From: a virus | Length of the DNA: 64,000 bases | Virus record (IMG/VR): IMGVR_UViG_3300012206_000001 | Location: 1-64,000 of that record | Direction: 5' to 3' (one strand) | Shown: one piece after another, positions 1,709-52,419 of the stretch | How positions within the stretch are numbered: position 1 is the stretch's first letter | Layout: the number at the start of each line of letters is the position of its first letter | Program-made: the position numbers and the translations under genes | Notes under the pieces: generated by a model | What the model saw: only the letters and a program-made list of their open reading frames with translations | What the model was told of the DNA's origin: nothing | Database searches by the model: none

Positions 1709-3460
1709 TCAGGCCGGAAGGTCATCGAACAGGGACGCCTGGCCGTCCGGCACCGACGGCGGCTTCGGCACCTGCAGCGCCTTGGCGCGCTCGGCCGGGT
1801 CGCTGACGCGCCACCGGGCCAGGCGGCAGTAGTCGGCCGAGCGGTCCACGCTGACGCCCGTGCGGCCGAGCATGGCGGCCACGAGCGCGGTGGTGCCGGT
1901 GCCGCCGAACGGGTCGACGATCAGGGCGGGGCGGACGGGCGCGTCAGGCTGCGGGCAGGCGCACGCATAGCCGGTGATGGTAGTCGGCTGCACGTTGAGC
2001 CCGTTGCCAGATGGCCCGTCGCCCTTCCGCTGCGTGTTAGACAGCGGCCAGCCGTTGTCGGTCCTGCGGTAGATCCCCGGCGTCACGCGCTCGCTGACCG
2101 GGCGTCGTCCTTCGCCGCAGGCGGTGCAGATCCCCGGCGGCGACCACCCCAGGATGATGCGGCGGGGCAGCTCCATGGGAAAGCTGGCGAAATGGTCTAT
2201 GCCGAGGTGCGCGGGCACCACCAGCGGCTGACTAGGTATTGACCAGACGTCGCCGGTAAGCCCGTGCTCGTACTCGCATGCAGGCCCGGCATTCCCTGTG
2301 TCCGTTGGCCCGGACATGGGTGTTCTCGGGTGTGAAGTCGTGCCCGTTGACGCAGGCGGGCTTGGTTGCCTCACGTCCTCGCCGGATGTTCTCACCGATG
2401 GTGACAGGCTCGAGGTGATCGGGGTTGACGCACCGGCGGTGGAGGCATCCCCTTCCGCTGCCCTCGCACTCGTGGGTGTGACAGCGATGGTCGATAGTGA
2501 ATCCGTCGGGAATGGGTCCGACCCAGAGCTCGTAGGCGAGCCGGTGGACTGCCCGGTGGCCGTCGCGGGTCCTGCGGTGGTGCCCGTAGCCCTCGTCGTC
2601 GATGAAGCCGGTCCAGTGCCAGCAGCCGTCGGTGCGTTCGATGCTGGCGTTGAACCGTTCGATCCAGTCCACTGAATCCCTTTCATGAGGCGTTCGGCTT
2701 CATCGATGGTGAGTGCGTCAGCGGCTACGGCCTGCAGGATGAGGCGGATCGTGGACTCGCCCTCGTGGATGTCCCACACGCTGCCCGGCAGCTTCCCCAG
2801 CGGGTTCTCGAGGTTCTCCGGGAAGTAGCCGCGCCGGAACCCGTTCTCGATGGTCGCCTGCTCCTTGGGCGAGTGCCGGCCGTCCTTGCGCCGGGCGTGC
2901 GTTCCGCCCGTGTGCGGTTCGCGGATGGCGTCGACGGCGGCGTAATACCGCGGCTGCCGCACCAGGTGAAACACGGCCGAATGCGCCCGCCTCACCCGGT
3001 CCGTCACGGATTCGGGCAAGCCGTTCGCATGGTGCCACACGATCTCCGCGCGCAGGATCAGACCCAGCTCGTCCATGCAGCGGATCACGTACCGGTGCGG
3101 CAGGTCCAGCAAGGATTTCTCCATCGGCCCGCGGGTCTGCCGCAGCGCCGTTCCCTGCGGGCCGCGGCCGGTGCCGTTCCCGCGGCTGGGTCCGTGGCCG
3201 CTGGCGCCATACTTGTCGCCGAGCTCGACGAACAGCGACCCGGACGGCTTGAGGACGCGGACCCATTCCCGGGTGCAGGCCAGCAGCGAATCAATGTACT
3301 CGCGTGGTGCCGGCTCGCTGCCGATCTGCCCGTCATAGTGGATGCCGCCGTCGGTGTAGCTGCGGAGCGCCCAGAATGGCGGGCTGGTCACGATCAAATC
3401 CACGCATTCATCTGGCAGCGGGAGCGCCCGGGCGTCGCCGCGGAGCACGACGGCGCTCAT
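1709..3460 (-). CDS. DNA methyltransferase, reading frame interrupted by an HNH insertion
   Basis: N6-adenine or N4-cytosine type DNA methyltransferase of phage type. The catalytic TSPPFWALRSY motif is near residue 30 and the SAM-binding DPFGGTGTTALVAA motif is near the C terminus, an N4/beta-class order. LRAEIVWHHANGLPESVTDR and PMELPRRIILGWSPPGICTACG are family hallmarks. Relatives run straight from PGSVWDI to PxxPLxVPEHLG. Here about 173 codons lie between GSVWDI (to 2768) and a second GDVWSI (2248-2237), followed by SQPLVVPAHLG. Much of that insert is the HNH gene in another frame, so residues in between are low-complexity Ser/Thr/Pro. Activity is uncertain. Confidence 0.75.
   Translation of the reverse strand: MSAVVLRGDARALPLPDECVDLIVTSPPFWALRSYTDGGIHYDGQIGSEPAPREYIDSLLACTREWVRVLKPSGSLFVELGDKYGASGHGPSRGNGTGRGPQGTALRQTRGPMEKSLLDLPHRYVIRCMDELGLILRAEIVWHHANGLPESVTDRVRRAHSAVFHLVRQPRYYAAVDAIREPHTGGTHARRKDGRHSPKEQATIENGFRRGYFPENLENPLGKLPGSVWDIHEGESTIRLILQAVAADALTIDEAERLMKGIQWTGSNGSTPASNAPTAAGTGPASSTTRATGTTAGPATATGQSTGSPTSSGSDPFPTDSLSTIAVTPTSARAAEGDASTAGASTPITSSLSPSVRTSGEDVRQPSPPASTGTTSHPRTPMSGPTDTGNAGPACEYEHGLTGDVWSIPSQPLVVPAHLGIDHFASFPMELPRRIILGWSPPGICTACGEGRRPVSERVTPGIYRRTDNGWPLSNTQRKGDGPSGNGLNVQPTTITGYACACPQPDAPVRPALIVDPFGGTGTTALVAAMLGRTGVSVDRSADYCRLARWRVSDPAERAKALQVPKPPSVPDGQASLFDDLPA
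2232..2672 (-). CDS. HNH endonuclease inserted within the methyltransferase gene
   Basis: 146 residues with a complete HNH layout: GCWHWTG, GYG, HRLAYELWVGPIPDG, then IDHRCHT, CVNPDHLEPVT and a GEN motif, followed by a Cys-rich segment (CVNGH..., ECRAC). It starts with GTG at 2672 behind AAAGGG, so it has its own ribosome-binding site. Its reading frame differs from that of the host methyltransferase, which stays open through it. Its last codons and TAG stop (RLVNT) overlap the second VW-S-I motif of the methyltransferase. A homing-type nuclease is likely. Confidence 0.8.
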   Translation of the reverse strand: MDWIERFNASIERTDGCWHWTGFIDDEGYGHHRRTRDGHRAVHRLAYELWVGPIPDGFTIDHRCHTHECEGSGRGCLHRRCVNPDHLEPVTIGENIRRGREATKPACVNGHDFTPENTHVRANGHRECRACMRVRARAYRRRLVNT

Positions 3461-6967: not shown

Positions 6968-7254
6968 AGCGGGCAGTTCTCCTTCGCGTGGCCGCGGTGG
7001 CCGCATCGTTCGCAGATGCGGAGCCGCCTGCCGATCCGGCCGGCCCTGTATGCGGGTGCCCGGTTGTCGGCGATGGCCAGGTGCCTGGCGTAGATGACGG
7101 CGGCGTCGGAGGCGACGAAGCTGGTACAGGGCCCGCCGAGCGCGGCGAACAGGGCCAGGTCGCCCTCATCGGTTCCGGCGGCGTGCTGGTGGGCGCGCCC
7201 GGGCTGGCCGCAGCGTCCGCATGCCTCGATGGCCTGCTGTCTCGCGGCGTCCAT
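6964..7254 (-). CDS. Small protein with N-terminal CxxC and C-terminal zinc knuckle
   Basis: 96 residues. ACGRCGQPGRAHQH at the N terminus and CERCGHRGHAKENC at the C terminus. The latter is a CCHC zinc knuckle (C-x2-C-x3-4-H-x4-C), a single-strand nucleic-acid-binding motif. Next to the replication genes this may be a single-strand-binding accessory; that is inference. Confidence 0.6.
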   Translation of the reverse strand: MDAARQQAIEACGRCGQPGRAHQHAAGTDEGDLALFAALGGPCTSFVASDAAVIYARHLAIADNRAPAYRAGRIGRRLRICERCGHRGHAKENCPL

Positions 7255-7592
7255 CACGACGCCTCGATGGCCAGCGTGTCGCCGGACATGGCGGCCCGGC
7301 GGTGGCACGTGCAGCTGCACCAGCTCCACACGCAGTCGCGGCAGTTCCGCCCGCGGCACGCGTCGCTGTGCGGCAGGGCGCCCGCGTTCTTCCGGTCGAC
7401 CAGTACGCGGATATCCGATGCGGCGACGAACGGGCGTGACCTGGCTATCTCGGCTACGGCGGCGCGGCAGCTGGCGAGGTCCAGGTCGCCGAGCAGGTCA
7501 TGCCACGCGTCGGGGGTGCGGCTGTCGATCTTCTGCTGCGGGCAGCAGGCCGCGATGTAACGGACGAGGATAACAGTTTCCGCTGGCGTCAT
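7254..7592 (-). CDS. Helicase-loader-like protein (G39P-type N terminus) with Cys-rich tail
   Basis: 112 residues. The N-terminal ~65 (MTPAETVILVRYIAACCPQQ, DAWHDLLGDLDLASCRAAVA, VAASDIR) resembles the small helical domain of phage helicase loaders such as SPP1 G39P and actinophage relatives. A Cys/His-rich tail (CRGRNCRDCVWSWCSCTCH) follows and may bind zinc. It overlaps and follows the initiator gene, the usual place for a loader. The family match is from pattern only. Confidence 0.5.
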   Translation of the reverse strand: MTPAETVILVRYIAACCPQQKIDSRTPDAWHDLLGDLDLASCRAAVAEIARSRPFVAASDIRVLVDRKNAGALPHSDACRGRNCRDCVWSWCSCTCHRRAAMSGDTLAIEAS

Positions 7593-8476
7593 TTCCTGCC
7601 TTCTTTCGCAATGGCGCGTTTCATCGCCGCGCCGAATAGCTCGTCCGTTTCCGCCTGGCGGCTGCTTCCCGGCTTGCGGCTTGCCTGAAGGCGCAGCTGA
7701 TCGTATTTCTCGCGCAATTTCGGCATCGACAGGATGTTGGACCGCCAGAATTCGCTGTCCTGGCACCAGTCAATTGCTGTAGTTACCTGCTGCTCGGTGC
7801 GGCCGTCACGGTCGAGCATCAGCCGGGCTGAATCGCGCCAGCGTTTCGTGATTGCCGGCCGTTTGGAGCCGTTGGCTTCGATGCGGTCGGCGAGGTGGGC
7901 GCAGAGGCGCTCGACGTCGGCTCGCGCCGGTTTCGCCGGCACGTCTTTAACCTGTACCTCATCTATACCTGTACTGGTTATAAACACGTCTGAAGTCTCA
8001 AACCCCGCAGGATCTGCGGGGTTTCCGGGGCTTGCACGCTCTGAGCTGCCGTTATAACTCTCAAAGGGTGCAGATCCTGCGGGGTTTGGAGGGTCGGCGA
8101 AACCCCGCAGATCCTGCGGGGTTTCGGTAAACCCCGCAGGATCTGCGGGGTTACTCGCCGGTATGGGTGCAGATCCTGCGGGGTTTCCGGGCTCAAACCC
8201 CGCAGGATCTGCGGGGTTTACCATGGTCGCCCGGTACCGCGTCCGGCGCCCCCGGCCGCCGCCGTGGCATGCCTCCAGCTCACCGAAGCCGACGAGTTCC
8301 TTCACGGCAGTCTGCACCGTGCGCTCCCCCAGACGGCATTTAGAAGCCAATTCCAAAGCGCTCATCTCAGCCTCTCCGCCCTTGTCTGCCTTGTGCGCGA
8401 TGGCCAGCAGGACGATGAGGGAGCCATTGACAGCGCGCGAATGCTTCCACACCCAGTCGATGACATTTTGCGCCAC
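7589..8476 (-). CDS. Replication initiator (lambda O-like organisation) containing the origin
   Basis: 295 residues. The N terminus (DWVWKHSRAVNGSLIVLLAI, SALELASKCRLGERTVQTAV, KELVGFGELEACHGGGRGRR) is a winged-helix domain of the phage replisome-organiser type. Residues ~90-165 are a linker of repeated NPADPAGF, NPAGSAP and TPQDLRGF encoded by six iterons (see 8000-8219). The C-terminal part (ERLCAHLADRIEANGSKRPA, KRWRDSARLMLDRDGRTEQQ) resembles the helicase-recruiting end of such proteins. As in lambda O, the binding sites lie inside the gene of the protein expected to bind them. Confidence 0.75.
   Translation of the reverse strand: MAQNVIDWVWKHSRAVNGSLIVLLAIAHKADKGGEAEMSALELASKCRLGERTVQTAVKELVGFGELEACHGGGRGRRTRYRATMVNPADPAGFEPGNPAGSAPIPASNPADPAGFTETPQDLRGFADPPNPAGSAPFESYNGSSERASPGNPADPAGFETSDVFITSTGIDEVQVKDVPAKPARADVERLCAHLADRIEANGSKRPAITKRWRDSARLMLDRDGRTEQQVTTAIDWCQDSEFWRSNILSMPKLREKYDQLRLQASRKPGSSRQAETDELFGAAMKRAIAKEGRK
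8000..8219. repeat. Six 25-bp palindromic iterons, probable replication origin
   Basis: Consensus arms AAACCCCGCAG and CTGCGGGGTTT with a 3-bp centre (GAT or ATC). Copies at 8000-8024, 8063-8087, 8100-8124, 8129-8153, 8162-8186 and 8195-8219. Copies 2 and 5 have a degenerate left arm; the fourth ends TTA. Start-to-start spacing is 63, 37, 29, 33 and 33 bp, close to three helical turns for the last three. All lie inside the initiator gene and are read in two frames there, so selection seems to act on DNA rather than on peptide sequence. The region lacks a clear AT-rich unwinding stretch, apart from the modest one near 7950-8000. Confidence 0.75.
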
Positions 8477-8552: not shown

Positions 8553-8903
8553 CTACGCCGCGCCGCCGCCGGGGGGCGGCCTGCGGATCATGCCAGGCCC
8601 GGGCTGCCTGGCCGCGGGCCTGACCCGCGCCCGCCGCCTGGCCGCGCCGTGCGCGCCCTGCGCGGCTTTCACCCGCTGGCGCCACTGCTGGCCGGTGGTG
8701 CCGGCGGGGGGCGCGTCGTCCGTGGGCGCGCCTCCCGCCGGGTCTCTGGGCGGGCACCCCCGGGCCGCTCCAGGCGGGGGGGATAGTCCTGGAGCGGTAC
8801 CCGGGGGCTGGCTCCTCCTCGGCGCGGGGAGCGGGGGAGCTTGCGCCGGGGAGGAGGGAATCCCCTCGTCAGGGGAAAGTTCAGATGCCGGCCTCGTGCT
8901 CAT
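8553..8903 (-). CDS. Pro/Ala-rich hypothetical protein
   Basis: 116 residues, low complexity (PAQAPPLPAPRRSQPPGTAP). A short charged helical stretch WRQRVKAAQGAHGAARRRAR lies near the C terminus. It starts with ATG overlapping the stop of the HNH gene (ATGA). No family; coding status is supported only by the overlap and reading-frame length. Confidence 0.45.
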   Translation of the reverse strand: MSTRPASELSPDEGIPSSPAQAPPLPAPRRSQPPGTAPGLSPPPGAARGCPPRDPAGGAPTDDAPPAGTTGQQWRQRVKAAQGAHGAARRRARVRPAARQPGPGMIRRPPPGGGAA

Positions 8904-9532
8904 GCGACAGCCTCCGCCCCGCTCTGGCTCACGCGTCGTGAAGCCTCGGCCAGCACGAGTGCCGTGACCCAGGAATGAAGGTCGGTATCGTCCTCTACGG
9001 AAAGGCGCAGGGCGATTTCGGCCACATCGCGCGGCATCTTGATGCGAACCGATTCATTCTGCTTGCGCTTCTGCCTATCCTTATCCTGCTGGCAGGCCCT
9101 GCATTGACGGTGGCCCTTAGGCGTTACCAGGGTATTCTTGTCATCGTACGGATGCTGCTTCGGGCAGTGGGTCTTGCGCAGGTTTACTGCCACGAAGTTA
9201 TTTCCCCGCCGGGTATTCTCTGCATTCGTGACGGGTTCCAGATGCCCAGGCCAGCAGCATGCTCTGGATACGCAGCCCCAGGCCTCCACGTGGTCGAGCT
9301 GCAGCTTGTCCGGGACGGACTCCGCGAGGAGCGTATAGACAAGCCGGTGAATGCGCCACAATCTTCCGTGCCAGCGAAAGAAGCCGTAGCCCCTCTTAGG
9401 GCAGCGATATCCCTGCCAGTCCCAGCAGCCTGTAACCGGGTTGACGGTTATTTTCGCGGCTATGTTTGCCGGAAGGTCGGTTACGTGAAATTCGCGAGGC
9501 GGCCGGGTTCCTGCCGGAGGGGAGGTGCTCAA
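8900..9532 (-). CDS. HNH endonuclease with a helical C-terminal extension
   Basis: 210 residues. GCWDWQGYRCPKRGYGFFRW, then IHRLVYTLL, LDHVEAWGCVS, CWPGHLEPVTNAENT form the HNH core, followed by CPKQH...CRACQ. The last ~50 residues (IKMPRDVAEIALRLSVEDDT, DLHSWVTALVLAEASRRV) look like an RHH or short helical domain and are not usual for this nuclease. The TTG start at 9532 overlaps the upstream stop. Homing-type nuclease likely. Confidence 0.75.
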   Translation of the reverse strand: MSTSPPAGTRPPREFHVTDLPANIAAKITVNPVTGCWDWQGYRCPKRGYGFFRWHGRLWRIHRLVYTLLAESVPDKLQLDHVEAWGCVSRACCWPGHLEPVTNAENTRRGNNFVAVNLRKTHCPKQHPYDDKNTLVTPKGHRQCRACQQDKDRQKRKQNESVRIKMPRDVAEIALRLSVEDDTDLHSWVTALVLAEASRRVSQSGAEAVA

Positions 9533-19511: not shown

Positions 19512-19955
19512 ATGGCAGCTGCTGAACGCTGGCTGCCGGTCCCAGACTGGGAAGACGCCTTCGAGGTCTCCAGCCTCGGGCGGGTCCGCAGTGTCCGGGT
19601 CCTGTCCCTCCAGCGGCACCCGGACGGCTACCCGCAGGTCACGCTGCGCCGCGGCGGCCGGACTCAGCTCGCCGCCGTTCACCGCCTGGTCATGCTCGCG
19701 TTCGCCGGGCCGCCGCCGCTGGATGAGGACGGCAAGCCCATGGAGGTGCTGCACCGGAACGGGAAGCCGGGCGACCCGGGGAGACGGAACCTCCGGTACG
19801 GGACCAAGCCAGAGAACAGGGCTGACCGGGAAAGGCACCGCAGGGGCCGGACGGGTAAACGGAAGAGGAAACAGGGGGGAACAGGTGAACTAGACGGAAC
19901 AGGGTTCCTGTCTGATGATCCTGCTGTTCCTGTTTCACGGCGGGCGGCCTCATGA
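19512..19955 (+). CDS. NUMOD4/HNH-type homing endonuclease
   Basis: 147 residues. ERWLPVPDWEDAFEVSSLGR and VRSVRVLSL are the NUMOD4 start, RTQLAAVHRLVMLAFAG is the HNH His strand, and LHRNGKPGDPGRRNLRYGTK then PENRADR is the Asn motif. The first catalytic His/Asp pair is replaced by LHRNG, acceptable in this subfamily. The rest is a basic tail. A 16-bp hairpin precedes it, and its end overlaps the FtsK-type gene. Confidence 0.78.
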   Translation: MAAAERWLPVPDWEDAFEVSSLGRVRSVRVLSLQRHPDGYPQVTLRRGGRTQLAAVHRLVMLAFAGPPPLDEDGKPMEVLHRNGKPGDPGRRNLRYGTKPENRADRERHRRGRTGKRKRKQGGTGELDGTGFLSDDPAVPVSRRAAS

Positions 19956-21757
19956 CCGGTGTCGTGATCATCTTCGCCCTCATCCCGCTGATCGCCCTGT
20001 GGGGCGTGCTGGAGACCGGCCGCCGCCGGTTCCGCGCGCACGGGTTCGTCATCCTGGCGTGGCGCTTCCTGACCGGGCACCCCTGGCACGGCAAGCCGGT
20101 CACCGACGCGGGCTGGCTGCGGCCCGGCAGGCGGGCGCTGACCAGGACCGGGCACGCGTCCCGGTTCCACCACCGGCCGCGGTGGCAGCGGGCCGGCTGG
20201 CGCGCCGGCAGCGTGCTCGTCATCGTCCTGGCCGGCTATGGCCTGGTGATCGCGCGGACGCTCACCCTGGCCGCCCTGGCCCTGGCCGCCGCCGCGCTGG
20301 CCGTCCTGGGGTGCCTGCGGCTATGGCGGGCGGTCCGCCGCCGCAGGCACCGCCGCACCTGGATCGACCCGCTGCACGTCGCGCTCGCGCCGCTGGCCGG
20401 GATCCCGCTGCCGAACCCGCCGGGATCCTGGCTCGCCATCGAGCCCGACCGCAGCAAGGCAGTGCTGTCGCTGCCGCCCGGGTACAACGATGACGCGCGG
20501 CAGCGTGACAAGCTCGCAGCCACGGCCGCCGCCAAGCTCGGGCTCGAGCAGCCGGAGATCCGCTGGCGCCTGGCCGGGCCGGAGCCGACGCTGACCCTGC
20601 TCCAGTCCGAGCCCCCGCCCGCCCTGGTGACATACGCCGACGTCGCCGATGCGGTGGACCGGGCCGGGCCGGATGAGATCGTAACGGGCATCGGCAAGAA
20701 AGGCGCCATCGTCAAGGCATCCCTGGCGCTGGATTCCCCGCACTTCGCCATCAACATGGGCACGGGCGGCGGCAAGAGCACCCTGGCCGCGTTCTGGCTG
20801 ATGCAGGAGCTGCGCCGCGGTGCCTTCGCCATGGTGCTGGATTCCAAGTGGTTCTCCCACCCGTGGCTGTTCAAGGATGAGGACGGCGAGTATTCCCCGC
20901 TGCCGAACGTCGCCTACCTGTCGACCCCGGCGCAGATGCACGCCGGGATGATGTGGCTCGGCGGCGAGCTGAACTACCGTAACGAGGTCGCCAGGCGGGC
21001 GGTGGACGCATCGGGCCGGCTGCGCGGGAGCGTCGGCCCGCGGCTGATCATCCTCGCCGAGGAACTCAACTTCGCCACGCCGCAGCTCAGGCAGTACTGG
21101 GCGGATATCCGCGAGCCGTCGGACGTGAAGAAGTCCCCGGCGCTGACCTCGTTCGGCGCGGTGGCGTTCGCCGGGCGGGCGGTGAGGATGCACCTGATCC
21201 TGATCGGGCAGATGCTGACCGCTGACGTGACGGGTAGCCGGGACTCATCGGTCAAGGAGAACATCGGCGTCACGGCGATGGCCCGCTACGGGGCACCGGG
21301 CTGGGCGACGGCGGTGGGGAGGAACGTGCCGATGCCGCCGTCCCCGAGCGTCCTGGGCCGCGTCCAGCTGGTGACGGCGGGCGGCGTCCGGGAGACGCAG
21401 GCGCCGCGGGCAGACATGCTGCTGTACCGGCAGCTGGCGGTATCCGGGATGGTCACGCGATGCCCGGCCGGGATGCCCGGCGCGGCCCGGCTGCCGTTTG
21501 AAACAGGCCGGCCCGCATCTCTGGCGCCCGGCCCTGACCAGGGCACGGAACAGTTTCAGCCTGTTTCCGGGCCGCCTCCTGTTTCACTGTCCGAGGCGGT
21601 CGGCATGGGTATCCTGCGCGGTCATCTCGCCGCGATCCGGACGGCCAGGCACCGGGATGAGAACTTCCCGGAACCGGTCGGCAAGCGCGGCCTGGCGCAC
21701 GTCTACGACCCGGTCGCGCTCGCCGGCTGGCAGGACGCCAGGGAGGTGGCCCGGTGA
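19952..21757 (+). CDS. FtsK/SpoIIIE-type ATPase (TraB/TraSA-like)
   Basis: 601 residues. One or two membrane helices (residues ~1-15 and ~85-115), then a RecA-like ATPase: Walker A GTGGGKSTL near residue 270, Walker B LIILAEELN near 365, and IGQMLTADVTGSRDSSVKEN with VTAMARYGAPGW as sensor region. Size and order fit the single-protein septal DNA translocators that move double-stranded DNA during conjugation of Streptomyces plasmids and integrative elements. Some actinophages carry similar proteins. Together with the DUF2637 gene at 22740 it suggests a transfer module. Confidence 0.82.
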   Translation: MTGVVIIFALIPLIALWGVLETGRRRFRAHGFVILAWRFLTGHPWHGKPVTDAGWLRPGRRALTRTGHASRFHHRPRWQRAGWRAGSVLVIVLAGYGLVIARTLTLAALALAAAALAVLGCLRLWRAVRRRRHRRTWIDPLHVALAPLAGIPLPNPPGSWLAIEPDRSKAVLSLPPGYNDDARQRDKLAATAAAKLGLEQPEIRWRLAGPEPTLTLLQSEPPPALVTYADVADAVDRAGPDEIVTGIGKKGAIVKASLALDSPHFAINMGTGGGKSTLAAFWLMQELRRGAFAMVLDSKWFSHPWLFKDEDGEYSPLPNVAYLSTPAQMHAGMMWLGGELNYRNEVARRAVDASGRLRGSVGPRLIILAEELNFATPQLRQYWADIREPSDVKKSPALTSFGAVAFAGRAVRMHLILIGQMLTADVTGSRDSSVKENIGVTAMARYGAPGWATAVGRNVPMPPSPSVLGRVQLVTAGGVRETQAPRADMLLYRQLAVSGMVTRCPAGMPGAARLPFETGRPASLAPGPDQGTEQFQPVSGPPPVSLSEAVGMGILRGHLAAIRTARHRDENFPEPVGKRGLAHVYDPVALAGWQDAREVAR

Positions 21758-22739: not shown

Positions 22740-23546
22740 TTGACGTCCGCGAACGGGCATGCCCCGCCGGCGCTTCCCGCCCTGGCGCCGTTCACGGTGC
22801 CCCGGTCCGGGCCCGCGGCCGCCTGGCCGCAGCAGGACGGCCATGGCCAGCCCCGGACGATCCCGGACGATCCCGGGCGCCGCCGGCGCGCCATCGACGG
22901 CGACACGGCCATCCGCGTCCTGGCCGCCGCCGTCGTCCTGGCCGTCGCCGCGTTCGCCGCCATAGTGTCGTACTCCCATATTTTCGAGCTCGGCCGCCAG
23001 CATCATCAGGACGGCGCCGCGGCGCGGCTGCTGCCGCTGTCGGTCGACGGCCTCATCGCCGCCGCGTCGCTCGTCATGCTCCACGCCGCCCGCAAGCGGA
23101 TCGCGGTGCCGTTCCTGGCGCGTGCCATGCTGGCGCTCGGCGTCGGCGCCACCGTCGCCGCGAATGTCGGGTACGGGCTGCCGTTCGGCTGGCTGGCCGC
23201 TGTCGTGTCGGCGTGGCCGGCCGCCGCGTTCGTGGGCAGCGTGGAGATGGCGGTCAGGTTCGTGATCGACGCCCGCACGGCCGCCGCGCCAGCGACAGGC
23301 GACGCGACACCGGCTGCGACATGTGACGGCACGCCACGCGACATCCAAAGCGGCACCAGGCCCGCCGCCGCCACGGCGGAACCAGCGCGCCAGCCGCGAC
23401 ATGGAGCACGCTCAGGCAGCGACAGGGTGCGCGACATCCTGGCGCGCGACCCGGGCCTGCCCCCGCCCGATGTCGCGGCGGAGACGGGCATGTCGGTGCG
23501 CCAGGTTCAGCGCGTGAAGCGAGAGATGAACGGAGCAGCAAAGTGA
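22740..23546 (+). CDS. DUF2637 membrane protein (SpdB2-like) with C-terminal HTH
   Basis: 268 residues from a TTG at 22740. DUF2637 at ~55-170 has four membrane helices (RVLAAAVVLAVAAFAAIVSY, LPLSVDGLIAAASLVMLHAA, MLALGVGATVAANVGYGLPF, AVVSAWPAAAFVGSVEMAVR). A C-terminal helix-turn-helix reads PPPDVAAETGMSVRQVQRVK. DUF2637 proteins accompany Tra ATPases in actinobacterial plasmids and integrative elements. Membrane plus DNA-binding parts would fit anchoring of the transferred DNA. Confidence 0.8.
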   Translation: MTSANGHAPPALPALAPFTVPRSGPAAAWPQQDGHGQPRTIPDDPGRRRRAIDGDTAIRVLAAAVVLAVAAFAAIVSYSHIFELGRQHHQDGAAARLLPLSVDGLIAAASLVMLHAARKRIAVPFLARAMLALGVGATVAANVGYGLPFGWLAAVVSAWPAAAFVGSVEMAVRFVIDARTAAAPATGDATPAATCDGTPRDIQSGTRPAAATAEPARQPRHGARSGSDRVRDILARDPGLPPPDVAAETGMSVRQVQRVKREMNGAAK

Positions 23547-41468: not shown

Positions 41469-42549
41469 CTACCTCCGTGGTTGTTTGCCGAGCAGCGACA
41501 GCAGCCGCTTCGCCGCGTTGGTGAACGTCCGGTCCGCGATGGCCGCGCGGGCCTTCAGTGCAGCTTCCGCGCGTTCATCTGGATGGGCGAGCGCCCAGCG
41601 GATCTGGCCGGATGCCTCTTCCGGGGTGGTGAAGGCGGGCAGCATGGGGAAGAGCTCGTCCGATTCGGGCCTGCTGTCGCGGGCGAACCACAGCCCGCAC
41701 GCCGCCTGCTCGATCTCCCGCGGCCCGCACGCGTATGCCTGCGCGTCCCAGTCCGGCTCCGCCTCGCGCCGGTAGAAGTTGATCCCGCACGCCGCACGCC
41801 GGTACAGGGCGGCCGTCTCGGCGTTGTCCACGCACACGTCCGCGTCGGCGTCGCGGGACAGCAGGTGCCCGCGCAGCGGCGAGTCCGCGGCCAGGCGCCC
41901 CCAGAATCCGCCGAGCGCGACCCGCAGCCCGGCCAGGTCCATCTGCTCGAGGAACGCGACCCGGCTGGGGAACCCGGTGCCGACGAACGCCAGGTCGTAC
42001 TCCGGCTCCGTCCCCGCAGGCGCCGGGTAGTGCACCGACGGGCGGTAGGAATGCGGCATGTACTCCGCCACCGGGCTGGCCGCCCGGTACGCCTCAATGC
42101 CAGCCGGGTCGTTGACCAGGCTGATATCGGCGAACTTCGCCATCTGAAGCTGCTGCCCGGCCTGGTACGGCGCCTCGCTGAACAGCATCACGATCGTGTG
42201 GCCGCGGGACCGCATGACCTCCAGCACGGACGCGGGGGTGAAGAACGCGGACACGCACAGGACGACGCTTGGCCACCATCTATAGCACGCGCCGAGCAGC
42301 AGGTCGCCTGTGGCGAGCCCGACGGCCTGCTCGGTGGTGAACGCCTTGCGGGCCGGCCGGCGCCCTTCGCTGTCGGGTGCGGCCCCGGTCTCGGGCATGA
42401 GCGCCGAGTCGAAGACCTGCAGCCGCGCGTCGAGATTGTATTCCATGACCTCTTCGCCGAGGCCGCGCAGCGCTTCTACCCATCCGACATGCATATCGGC
42501 GACACTGAAGTTGGGCTAAAGGCCCTGGGTGGATAACCAGCCAGCGCAT
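41469..42549 (-). CDS. Glycosyltransferase with a disrupted N terminus
   Basis: The body from 42494 (341 residues) resembles GT-B-type phage glycosyltransferases: SVLEVMRSRGHTIVMLFSEA, ADISLVNDPAGIEAYRAASP, YDLAFVGTGFPSRVAFLEQM, NAETAALYRRAACGINFYRR and ACGPREIEQAACGLWFARDS. A well-placed start (42549, behind GAGGAGG) gives MRWLVIHPGP but then a 7-base insertion relative to the copy at 43381 breaks the frame and adds a stop. The ATG at 42494 has no ribosome-binding site. Activity is doubtful unless decoded by frameshift. Confidence 0.65.
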
Positions 42550-46306: not shown

Positions 46307-47455
46307 TCAACTCGGCCCTCCCGTCCGCTGGTCGGTGGCTGTGAGCGTCCCGGACGCCGCCGTGGCGGCCGTCAGCGCGCTGCTGGCTCCCGCCGCGGTC
46401 AGGACGGCGCCGGGGACGTCTGCGGCGGTCAGGGCGCCGACGGTGAACGGCGGCGGGGGCGGGATGAACGGCGCGCCGCTGATGACCGTGGTCGTGGGCG
46501 GCGGCCGGAGCTGGGTCATCACCACGACCGGCCGCGGCGTCGTCAGGACCGGCGGGTCGGCGAGCGTGTTACGCAGGATGACCGGAGGCTGCGCCGCGGC
46601 CAGCTTGACGGCGGCAGCGACGATGACCGGCTGCGGCGTGGCCGCCGCCGCTGCGGCGGGTGCGGCAGGGTTCGCCGAGATGACCGCCGCCTGCGGTTTC
46701 CCCCAGCCGGTGACCGCCGTGGCCAGGACCACCACGGGCGCCGATGTCGTCAGGACCGGGGCGTCGGCGAAGGAGCCGCGGGAGATGACCGCCGGTCCGG
46801 GCGGCACTGCGGGAGGCTGCCGCCACATGACCAGCGGCGCCGGGGTGGCCGTAGCAGGGGTGAACGGCGCCGAGGAGACCAGCGGCGGCCCCGGCCTGCC
46901 GAAACCGGGCGTAGCCGCGGGCCCGGTGACCAGCGGCGCCGGGGTGGTCAGGACCGGGGCGTCGGCCAGGGAGGACCGGGAGGTGAGCGCCTGCTGCGGC
47001 GGTACGGCTGGCGGCTGCGCCGCGATGACGACGGCCGCCGGGGCGGCCTGCGCGGGCGCCGCGGCGCTGACGGCCGGCGCGGCGGTGATGACCGCAGGTC
47101 CCGGCTGCCCCCACCGGGGAGTGGCGGCGGCCGGGATGACCGCCGGCGCCGGGGTCGCGAGGTCCTGCAGCGACGACCGGGCGGTCAGGCCGGCCGGCGG
47201 CTGCCCGAACCCCGGCGTGGCCGCGGCCTGGATGACGTGCGGCGCCGGGGTCGTCAGGACCGGCGCGTCCTGCAGGCTGTTCCGGCTGATGACCGCGGGG
47301 ACCGGGATGCCCTGCCCGGCGGTGACCGCGAACGCCAGCCGGTCCCGCGCCCCGGAGATGACGACCGGGCCCCGCTTGAGCAGGTCCGGCGGGTCGGCCA
47401 GGCTCCCGCGGGAGATGACCGCCGGGGCGGGCTGGCCGCGGCCGAGCTGTGCCAC
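46307..47455 (-). CDS. Repetitive Pro/Ala-rich virion-region protein
   Basis: 382 residues built on about six copies of (S/A)R(G/N/S)SL(A/Q)D(A/P)PVLTTPAPxVI separated by AATPGFGQPGP-like linkers. It ends in GALTAADVPGAVLTAAGASS and GTLTATDQRTGGPS. No catalytic motif. Extended Pro-rich repeats suggest a surface fibre or spacer. The C-terminal pattern is common in actinophage head-tail regions. Confidence 0.6.
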   Translation of the reverse strand: MAQLGRGQPAPAVISRGSLADPPDLLKRGPVVISGARDRLAFAVTAGQGIPVPAVISRNSLQDAPVLTTPAPHVIQAAATPGFGQPPAGLTARSSLQDLATPAPAVIPAAATPRWGQPGPAVITAAPAVSAAAPAQAAPAAVVIAAQPPAVPPQQALTSRSSLADAPVLTTPAPLVTGPAATPGFGRPGPPLVSSAPFTPATATPAPLVMWRQPPAVPPGPAVISRGSFADAPVLTTSAPVVVLATAVTGWGKPQAAVISANPAAPAAAAAATPQPVIVAAAVKLAAAQPPVILRNTLADPPVLTTPRPVVVMTQLRPPPTTTVISGAPFIPPPPPFTVGALTAADVPGAVLTAAGASSALTAATAASGTLTATDQRTGGPS

Positions 47456-50811: not shown

Positions 50812-52419
50812 TCAGCGAGCCGCGGCCTCATAGGCTTTCTCCCAGCGCACCCAGTGCTCCTGGATCGTGTACCCGGCCGCCAGCGCCCTGGCCTTCGCGC
50901 CCATCTCCTCCCGCGCCGCCGCATCGTTGATCAGCTCGGTCAGCCGGGCCTGCCACTGCTCCGGGGTGCGGACCAGGTACCCCGTCTCCCCGTCCCGGAC
51001 GAACTCGCGGTACGGCTCGGAGTCCTGCGCCACGACCGGGATCCCCCGGGCGGCCGCCTCCAAACATTTCAAATACGATTTCGATTTATTAAAAGGGATG
51101 TCCGCCAGGGGCGCGATCGCGATGTCGAAGTCGATGGCCTTGTAGTAGTCACCGACGTCATCCGCCCAGGGAGTGAACCGGCACCGGGACCGCAGCCAGG
51201 GTGCCTTGATCCACTGCATCGGCGAATAGTCCACCCCGATCCAGTGCATGTCCACATCCGGGTGCGCGTCGAGGACGTCGCGGAGCGGGTCCTGGATGAC
51301 GCACAGGTCGATCAGGTGCGACGTGCCGCCCTGCCACCCGATGGTCACCCGGTCCCTGCGCTTGCGCGGCATCTCCAGCAGCCCCGCCTTCACGTAATTC
51401 GGCAGCACCACGATATTGGAATTGAACGGGGCGTACAGGTCCGCCAGGTACGGCGTGGACACGGTCACCATCTCCGCGCGGCGCAGGCAGTACCGCACCG
51501 ACTCCGCCGCCCGCGGGTCCGTGGTGAACGGCAGGTTCGACGTGTCCGTGGTGATCAGGTCATCATCGGTCTCATGCACCCGGGCGACGTGCCCGCCGAG
51601 CCGGTCGAACAGCCGCGTTCCCAGCGCGAACGTCGGCCGCTGGAACACCAGCACGTCGATGTCCTCCACGTCCGCCGGGGTCGGGTGCGGCAGCCTGGCG
51701 CCCGGCGCCGGTATGCCGAACACGTGCCGCGAGTTCGCGGTCAGGTGCCTGAACGGCTGGTACAGCCGGTGGTACCCGGACCCGTCCGCCTGGTAGGGCA
51801 TCCCGACGATCGTCAGCGTCCGGTCCGCGGCCCCGCCCGCCGCGGCGGGGCCGGGGACGATGCCCCACGCCAGGTGACCGGTGACCCCGGCGACCCCGAA
51901 GGCGTCCGCGACCTCCGTCACCCCCCACCCGGGGTGGCCCGTCGCCTCGCCCCGCCCGTAGTCGTGGAACGCCACCCACCCGCCCGGCCGGACCAGCGGC
52001 AGGACGAGCGTCAGATCCGCCGCCACCGCCGCCGCGTCATGCTGCGCGTCCAGGAACACCCCGTCGAACAGCCGCCCCTCCCGGGCCAGGGCGGGCAGCA
52101 CGTCCTCGAACCGGCCCCGCCGCGCATCGACCTTGGCCGCGACCCCGTACCGGGCCAGGTTTCCCCGGTACGCGTCCCACGTCCCCGCCTCGCCCAGGCC
52201 AGCGTCCCGGTCCCAGTCCGCCGTCCCCGCATCCCCCCGGTGCCAGTCCACCGACGTGACCCGCCGGGCCGCCTGCGCCAGGACCACCGTGGAGAACCCG
52301 AACCACGCCCCCAGCTCGAGCACGTCACCGCCCCGCGCCAGGGTCGCCAGCCGGGCCGCCTCCTCCGCCGTCACCCCCGTCGGGATGTCATCCGGGACCG
52401 TCACGGTCATCCCCGCCAT
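50812..52419 (-). CDS. Methyltransferase-glycosyltransferase fusion
   Basis: 535 residues. The first ~200 form a class I methyltransferase (GGDVLELGAWFGFSTVVLAQ, RLFDGVFLDAQHDAAAVAAD, VRPGGWVAFHDYGRG). The rest is a GT-B glycosyltransferase (YQADGSGYHRLYQPFRHLTA, ARVHETDDDLI, TVSTPYLADLYAPFNSNIVV, VTIGWQGGTSHLIDLCVIQD, FDIAIAPLADIPFNKSKSYL, KCLEAAARGIPVVAQDSEPY). The fusion would attach and methylate a sugar on one acceptor. Location among head genes suggests capsid or tail decoration. Confidence 0.82.
   Translation of the reverse strand: MAGMTVTVPDDIPTGVTAEEAARLATLARGGDVLELGAWFGFSTVVLAQAARRVTSVDWHRGDAGTADWDRDAGLGEAGTWDAYRGNLARYGVAAKVDARRGRFEDVLPALAREGRLFDGVFLDAQHDAAAVAADLTLVLPLVRPGGWVAFHDYGRGEATGHPGWGVTEVADAFGVAGVTGHLAWGIVPGPAAAGGAADRTLTIVGMPYQADGSGYHRLYQPFRHLTANSRHVFGIPAPGARLPHPTPADVEDIDVLVFQRPTFALGTRLFDRLGGHVARVHETDDDLITTDTSNLPFTTDPRAAESVRYCLRRAEMVTVSTPYLADLYAPFNSNIVVLPNYVKAGLLEMPRKRRDRVTIGWQGGTSHLIDLCVIQDPLRDVLDAHPDVDMHWIGVDYSPMQWIKAPWLRSRCRFTPWADDVGDYYKAIDFDIAIAPLADIPFNKSKSYLKCLEAAARGIPVVAQDSEPYREFVRDGETGYLVRTPEQWQARLTELINDAAAREEMGAKARALAAGYTIQEHWVRWEKAYEAAAR

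Follow-up and report, generated by a model that had tools for sequence, protein, structure and literature searches.

Binding by initiator dimers, bending and melting of the DNA, helicase recruitment and theta replication are established for phages lambda and SPP1. In SPP1, the origin oriL lies within gene 38, which encodes the initiator, and gp39 is the helicase loader (PMC6316719). The O protein of Stx phages contacts the G-tracts of each iteron in its origin, four of the six being bound efficiently (PMC7466680). Work on mycobacteriophage RepA suggested, by analogy with lambda, that replication starts within repA or immediately upstream of it, and found no repeated motifs (PMC7157519). The origin inside an initiator gene is a known kind, which the phage described here very probably joins. 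Its DNA was analysed as a 64-kb stretch, hereafter the window, of a 68,883-bp virus record; the GC content and the relatives of the phage point to an actinobacterial host. The window very probably holds an origin of actinophage type, embedded in the initiator gene on a lambda O/ori-like plan and accompanied by an SPP1-type loader.

As in the gene 38/oriL/gene 39 region of SPP1, the repeats and a putative AT-rich DNA unwinding element (DUE) lie inside the initiator gene, and the replication set includes a putative loader gene of the same fold (1NO1); SPP1 differs in having direct repeats, an additional origin and a DnaB-type helicase of its own, gp40 (PMC6316719). Among the window genes tested, none was recognised as coding for a helicase. 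With lambda the locus shares near-palindromic iterons in mid-gene (19 bp in lambda), an AT-rich stretch on the 3′ side of the iterons (40 bp in lambda), and a 4-bp overlap of the initiator gene with the following loader gene (P over O in lambda) (PMC5043065). Lambda, however, has four iterons rather than six of 25 bp, and the putative window loader, predicted to adopt the G39P fold, has no assignment to lambda P. The Stx-phage origins likewise have six iterons inside O, although their initiators, unlike the window protein, are related to lambda O (PMC7466680). Mycobacteriophage RepA and the window protein are both actinobacterial phage initiators, but of different protein families (PMC7157519). 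In the open-access papers that were searched, we found no report of such an origin type in actinobacterial phages and no mapped origin for those with an initiator of this kind; other papers may hold one.

The initiator gene, its iterons and the AT-rich stretch

The features of the locus, with iterons numbered in gene order, are as follows.

7589-8476, minus strand: O-like replication initiator gene (295 aa, GTG start; assigned from phrog_391 and the AlphaFold2 model)
8219-8476, minus strand: predicted N-terminal winged-helix DNA-binding domain, residues 1-86; recognition helix LGERTVQTAVKEL
7937-8218, minus strand: linker, residues 87-180, disordered (pLDDT <50), holding the iterons and the AT-rich stretch
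7679-7927, minus strand: conserved, family-defining C-terminal helical domain, residues 184-266, from the alignment of relatives
8195-8219, no strand: iteron 1, full palindrome
8162-8186, no strand: iteron 2, hybrid with an arm of the sister phage type, GGGTGCAG on the plus strand
8129-8153, no strand: iteron 3, full palindrome with one terminal mismatch (last base A, not T)
8100-8124, no strand: iteron 4, full palindrome; other reading frame, TPQDLRGF
8063-8087, no strand: iteron 5, hybrid
8000-8024, no strand: iteron 6, full palindrome
7945-7995, no strand: putative DUE, 61% AT in a genome of roughly 70% GC

A profile search matched phrog_391 ('replication initiation O-like') to residues 1-276 of the 295-residue initiator (E=1.2e-38), and its AlphaFold2 model consists of a winged helix (residues 2-83), a disordered segment (87-180) and a helical C-domain from residue 186, in line with an earlier note on this DNA that had placed the repeats in the linker of a lambda O-like protein. 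The predicted secondary structure of the N-domain is H-H-E-H-H-E-E (pLDDT mostly 80-91), and Pfam gave a weak HTH_36 match (E=3.7e-4). PF04492 (Phage_rep_O), which lambda O itself matches at 5.7e-36, was not matched by the initiator in the Pfam search; the protein is built like lambda O, yet is not filed as a member of that family. DnaD-like/replisome-organizer PHROGs match residues 195-277. Searching the initiator profile against PDB sequences gave no significant match, and the fold search returned generic winged helices only.

The 220-bp array comprises six copies of a 25-bp near-palindrome with the core GCAG-N3-CTGC. The six near-palindromes at 8000-8219 announced in the earlier note are all present: four are full 25-mers, AAACCCCGCAG-(GAT/ATC)-CTGCGGGGTTT, and two (8063-8087 and 8162-8186) carry an alternative arm, GGGTGCAG. 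The core centres lie at 8012, 8075, 8112, 8141, 8174 and 8207, giving spacings of 63, 37, 29, 33 and 33 bp. The last three copies are about 3.1 helical turns from one another (33 and 33 bp), as the same note had it, and the other spacings are not all in phase; helical phasing was dropped as a general rule, with near whole turns only for the 33, 33 and 63 bp spacings.

The repeated element could in principle be the peptide, with selection for NPADPAGF and an incidental DNA repeat, and five of the six copies do share a reading frame (frame 0). The sixth (8100-8124), however, is read in frame 2, where iteron 4 encodes TPQDLRGF instead of the usual NPADPAGF, and the asymmetric iteron centre occurs three times in each orientation. 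We scored repeats as repeated 9-mers on either strand, counted in 250 bp. The initiator gene scores 278. Synonymous recodings of the same protein (500) scored 14.7 on average and 58 at most, and permutations of the gene's own synonymous codons (500) scored 8.3 on average and 31 at most. Since the score lies far above the recodings and one copy is in another frame, it is the iteron DNA, rather than the linker peptide, that is conserved, as the earlier note had proposed from the two frames and both orientations. The linker is moreover predicted to be disordered; with the peptide unstructured, its DNA is free to be set by binding, and selection on the peptide can be given next to no weight.

Within the window, the next best 300-bp stretch has a repeat score of 40, against 280 at the array, and the 19-bp core, expected 0.36 times in the window at up to three mismatches, is present in four exact matches. 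The second most repeat-dense stretch (46676-46975, score 40) falls within a 382-aa ORF at 46307-47455.

The putative DUE, the neighbouring predicted helicase-loader gene and the sister-type half-sites of copies 2 and 5 were all absent from the earlier note. When 50-bp stretches of the 64-kb window are ranked by nearest-neighbour energy, the one starting at 7945 is the least stable (rank 0 of 63,950 positions), and the stretch 7945-7995 directly adjoins the last iteron on the C-domain side. As a positive control, the same calculations on lambda O recovered its array, at gene nt 345, and placed the least stable 50 bp of the gene right after the iterons. GC skew gives no clear origin mark in the window, with a minimum near 4-6 kb and a maximum near 34 kb; it was not used as an independent mark, gene strand changes being a confounder.

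Conserved layout and differing sites among relatives

We collected 78 relatives via the conserved C-domain of the initiator. Most full-length relatives have their own palindromic array and AT-rich stretch in the same place, the arrays sitting just ahead of the C-domain, and about fifteen distinct palindromic site families occupy the same gene position. Five of the sites read as follows.

L005/L064: GGGGTGCAG-AW-TCTGCACCCC
L082: CCCCGGTCA-AAA-TGACCGGGG
L071-L081: CCCCCGAAC-N2-3-GTTCACCC
L105: AGGTGGCCAATTTGGCCACCT, 24-bp period
L112: GTCACGGGCGTTACGCCCGTGAC

Across the whole locus, repeat density over 250 bp peaks inside the initiator gene in 52 of 75 loci. In 34 of 65 distinct loci the weakest 50 bp fall between array and C-domain, within the 220 bp that precede the latter, and that stretch ranks among the weakest 1% of the locus in 52 of the 65, where about 2 are expected by chance. 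Some relatives have an unrelated N-terminal domain, again with a different array; some are without any array by the repeat statistic, and the repeat peaks of L103 and L133 are tandem peptide repeats. Among cultured phages, Smoothie (84 vs 3) and Bcep176 (49 vs 9) have arrays, that of Smoothie consisting of tandem direct repeats, and KellEzio, Dorito, LC001, pMLP1, Austintatious and Alderaan have weak arrays or none by the same statistic. With six of those checked lacking a convincing array, the named cultured phages were dropped as clear copies of it. Very dense repeats were also observed outside the initiator gene of relatives, at L067:1921-2170 (= L008:3851-4150), L134:4201-4450, L136:4051-4300 and L016:926-1225 (scores 553, 1036, 537 and 201, respectively); the L134 array falls in an Ala-rich repeat protein.

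The sister phage L005 has its first four cores at the same gene positions as the window phage (nt 265, 298, 331 and 360) and the same core GCAG-N3-CTGC, while the outer arms mostly differ (CTGCGGGG vs CTGCACCCC). In gene orientation, the left arm of the window array is CCCCGCAG in all six copies and the right arm is CTGCGGGG in four and CTGCACCC in two; in L005 the right arm is CTGCACCCC in all copies and the left arm is GGGGTGCAG in three and CCCCGCAG in three. Both arrays thus contain hybrid sites that combine the two kinds of arm. The earlier note had called the arms of copies 2 and 5 degenerate, a description we reject: the odd arm is the standard half-site of the sister phage and, because it is regular there, these arms are best described as half-sites of a second kind. 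On a tentative reading of the sequences, to which we give somewhat less than even weight, the iteron arrays may have been caught in mid-change of binding specificity. If so, the family would offer a natural recognition code for phage initiators (GER/SER/SDR-GCAG, TDR-GAA, SDK-GTCA), evolving through asymmetric sites.

Half-site similarity tracks recognition-helix similarity with the C-domain held constant (partial Mantel r=0.50, p=0.0001, from a small set of 17 helix/site pairs picked by hand), whereas against C-domain similarity r=0.01. Site and helix are neighbours in the gene, and the C-domain, which is no farther from the site, serves as the control. Helices with GER, SER or SDR are paired with a GCA(G) core, TDR with GAA and SDK with GTCA. 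These approximately 17 natural pairs provide material for testing the co-evolution of initiator and origin.

Reverse searches found the 19-bp window core in 12 viral contigs and the sister site GGGGTGCAGAWTCTGCACCCC in 9, together 20 different contigs, in 17 of which an initiator N-domain lies at most 600 bp from the site. L155, which is the truncated end of the L020 contig, where the C-domain is present, makes an eighteenth, so that the hits fall in initiator-gene linkers in 17-18 of the 20; L056 and L060 hold lone terminator-like copies and L061 is ambiguous. The L053 group (L050, L053-L055 and L057-L059) has four GCAG-core iterons exactly 22 bp apart in the linker and the helix SERAVQ, and its initiator C-terminus was not retrieved by the actinophage C-domain search. 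The reverse searches, together with the covariation of site and helix, support a predicted binding of the initiator to the iterons.

Searches for the site also bear on a dispersed repeat of host type (REP or MITE-like) inserted in the gene, of which the earlier note had kept a residual chance. Near-identical palindromes in both orientations would fit such an element. Among 84,980 bacterial and archaeal species, however, the full 25-mer turned up once, in a lone copy resembling a terminator; a search of the full 68,883-bp record, which the earlier note had proposed, found no further copy there; and relatives carry different palindromes at the same positions. A dispersed repeat is accordingly scarcely credible, and counts as already refuted unless the host lies outside the sampled species and has many copies.

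Formation of RNA hairpins on the transcript, as a terminator or attenuator array, would draw on the 11-bp stems that the full 25-mers would give, and on the terminator-like appearance of two or three stray single copies (L056, L060, L062). The outer arms are, however, unpaired in the hybrid copies and in the sites of many relatives (e.g. CCCCCGAAC-N2-3-GTTCACCC), so that a long stem is not a conserved property of these sites, and we consider a hairpin function extremely improbable.

The predicted loader gene and the assignment of a probable origin

The gene following that of the initiator overlaps it by four bases (ATGA):

7254-7592, minus strand: putative helicase loader gene, predicted G39P fold (112 aa)

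Pfam and profile searches gave no named family for the 112-aa product. In its model the block mean pLDDT exceeds 90 for residues 1-70, and Foldseek returned 1no1 (SPP1 G39P) as best match (prob 1.00, target TM 0.81, rmsd 1.5 over 65 columns), all other matches having prob <=0.16; the family profile searched against the PDB likewise gave 1no1 as best match (E=0.024). Judged from this model, the protein is a putative helicase loader of the G39P fold, an identity that would pass to phrog_22143, and probably to 8924 and 6055 as well, all of them families of unknown annotation. By profile search, the same gene slot downstream of the initiator holds a DnaC-like loader in L132 and an IstB/DnaC-type ATPase in L084 and L097; in L108, L120 and L124 it holds a P-loop protein of similar look. 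Actinomycete hosts use DciA, not DnaC/DnaI (PMC5109545).

We regard it as highly likely that the array and the adjoining AT-rich stretch form the theta-type replication origin of the phage, inside its own initiator gene. This assignment is made because the array exceeds peptide-level repeats, the weakest 50 bp of the 64 kb adjoin it and the arrangement recurs across the family, and because of the covariation of site and helix, the reverse searches, the winged helix with its disordered linker, the roughly fifteen site families at one gene position and the predicted loader next door, whose slot is taken by a DnaC-like loader in some relatives; recovery of both array and weak stretch in the lambda O control supports it. 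Against it stand the non-uniform phasing, the weak or absent arrays in named relatives, the unmarked GC skew, the repeat peaks that are peptide repeats and the manual choice of the neighbouring sites and helices.

The sites might instead be operators, or a partition/incompatibility locus, of the same protein (autoregulation, handcuffing), with the origin elsewhere. Palindromes bound by helix-turn-helix proteins are often operators and plasmid iterons do double duty, so a second role for the sites would be compatible with all the data. That they lie in mid-gene rather than at a promoter, that they abut the least stable duplex of the window, an arrangement found family-wide, and that a predicted helicase-loader gene comes next make a location of the origin elsewhere unlikely, with only a slim chance left to it.

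For the origin within the initiator gene, the likely course of initiation can be outlined from the predicted folds and the gene order. Dimers of the winged-helix N-domain would bind the palindromic iterons; the bound initiator would then wrap or bend the DNA and melt 7945-7995; and the C-domain and the G39P-like protein would recruit the DnaB helicase of the host to the melted DNA. From sequence, the putative origin, unwinding element and loader can be read in dozens of phages at once, and the family could supply vectors for actinomycetes.

Genome surroundings

The 68,883-bp record contains portal, prohead protease, terminase, RecT, RecE-like and excisionase-like genes. An HNH endonuclease gene (8900-9532, minus strand) lies directly upstream of the initiator gene. 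A 146-aa HNH-type ORF (2232-2672, minus strand) is located, in another frame, inside a 583-aa N6/N4 DNA methyltransferase ORF (1709-3460, minus strand), in which methylase matches extend up to residue 231 and resume from near 514; by sequence, an HNH gene appears to have been inserted into the middle of the larger ORF without closing the outer frame.

A 601-aa protein (19952-21757, plus strand) with the P-loop GTGGGKST resembles, by eye, actinomycete FtsK/TraB-type transfer ATPases; it has no Pfam or PHROG match. Together with a DUF2637/excisionase-like protein (22740-23546, plus strand), it possibly gives this phage genome features of an integrative conjugative element. Among the virion genes are a fused methyltransferase-glycosyltransferase (50812-52419, minus strand) and a second glycosyltransferase (41469-42494, minus strand).
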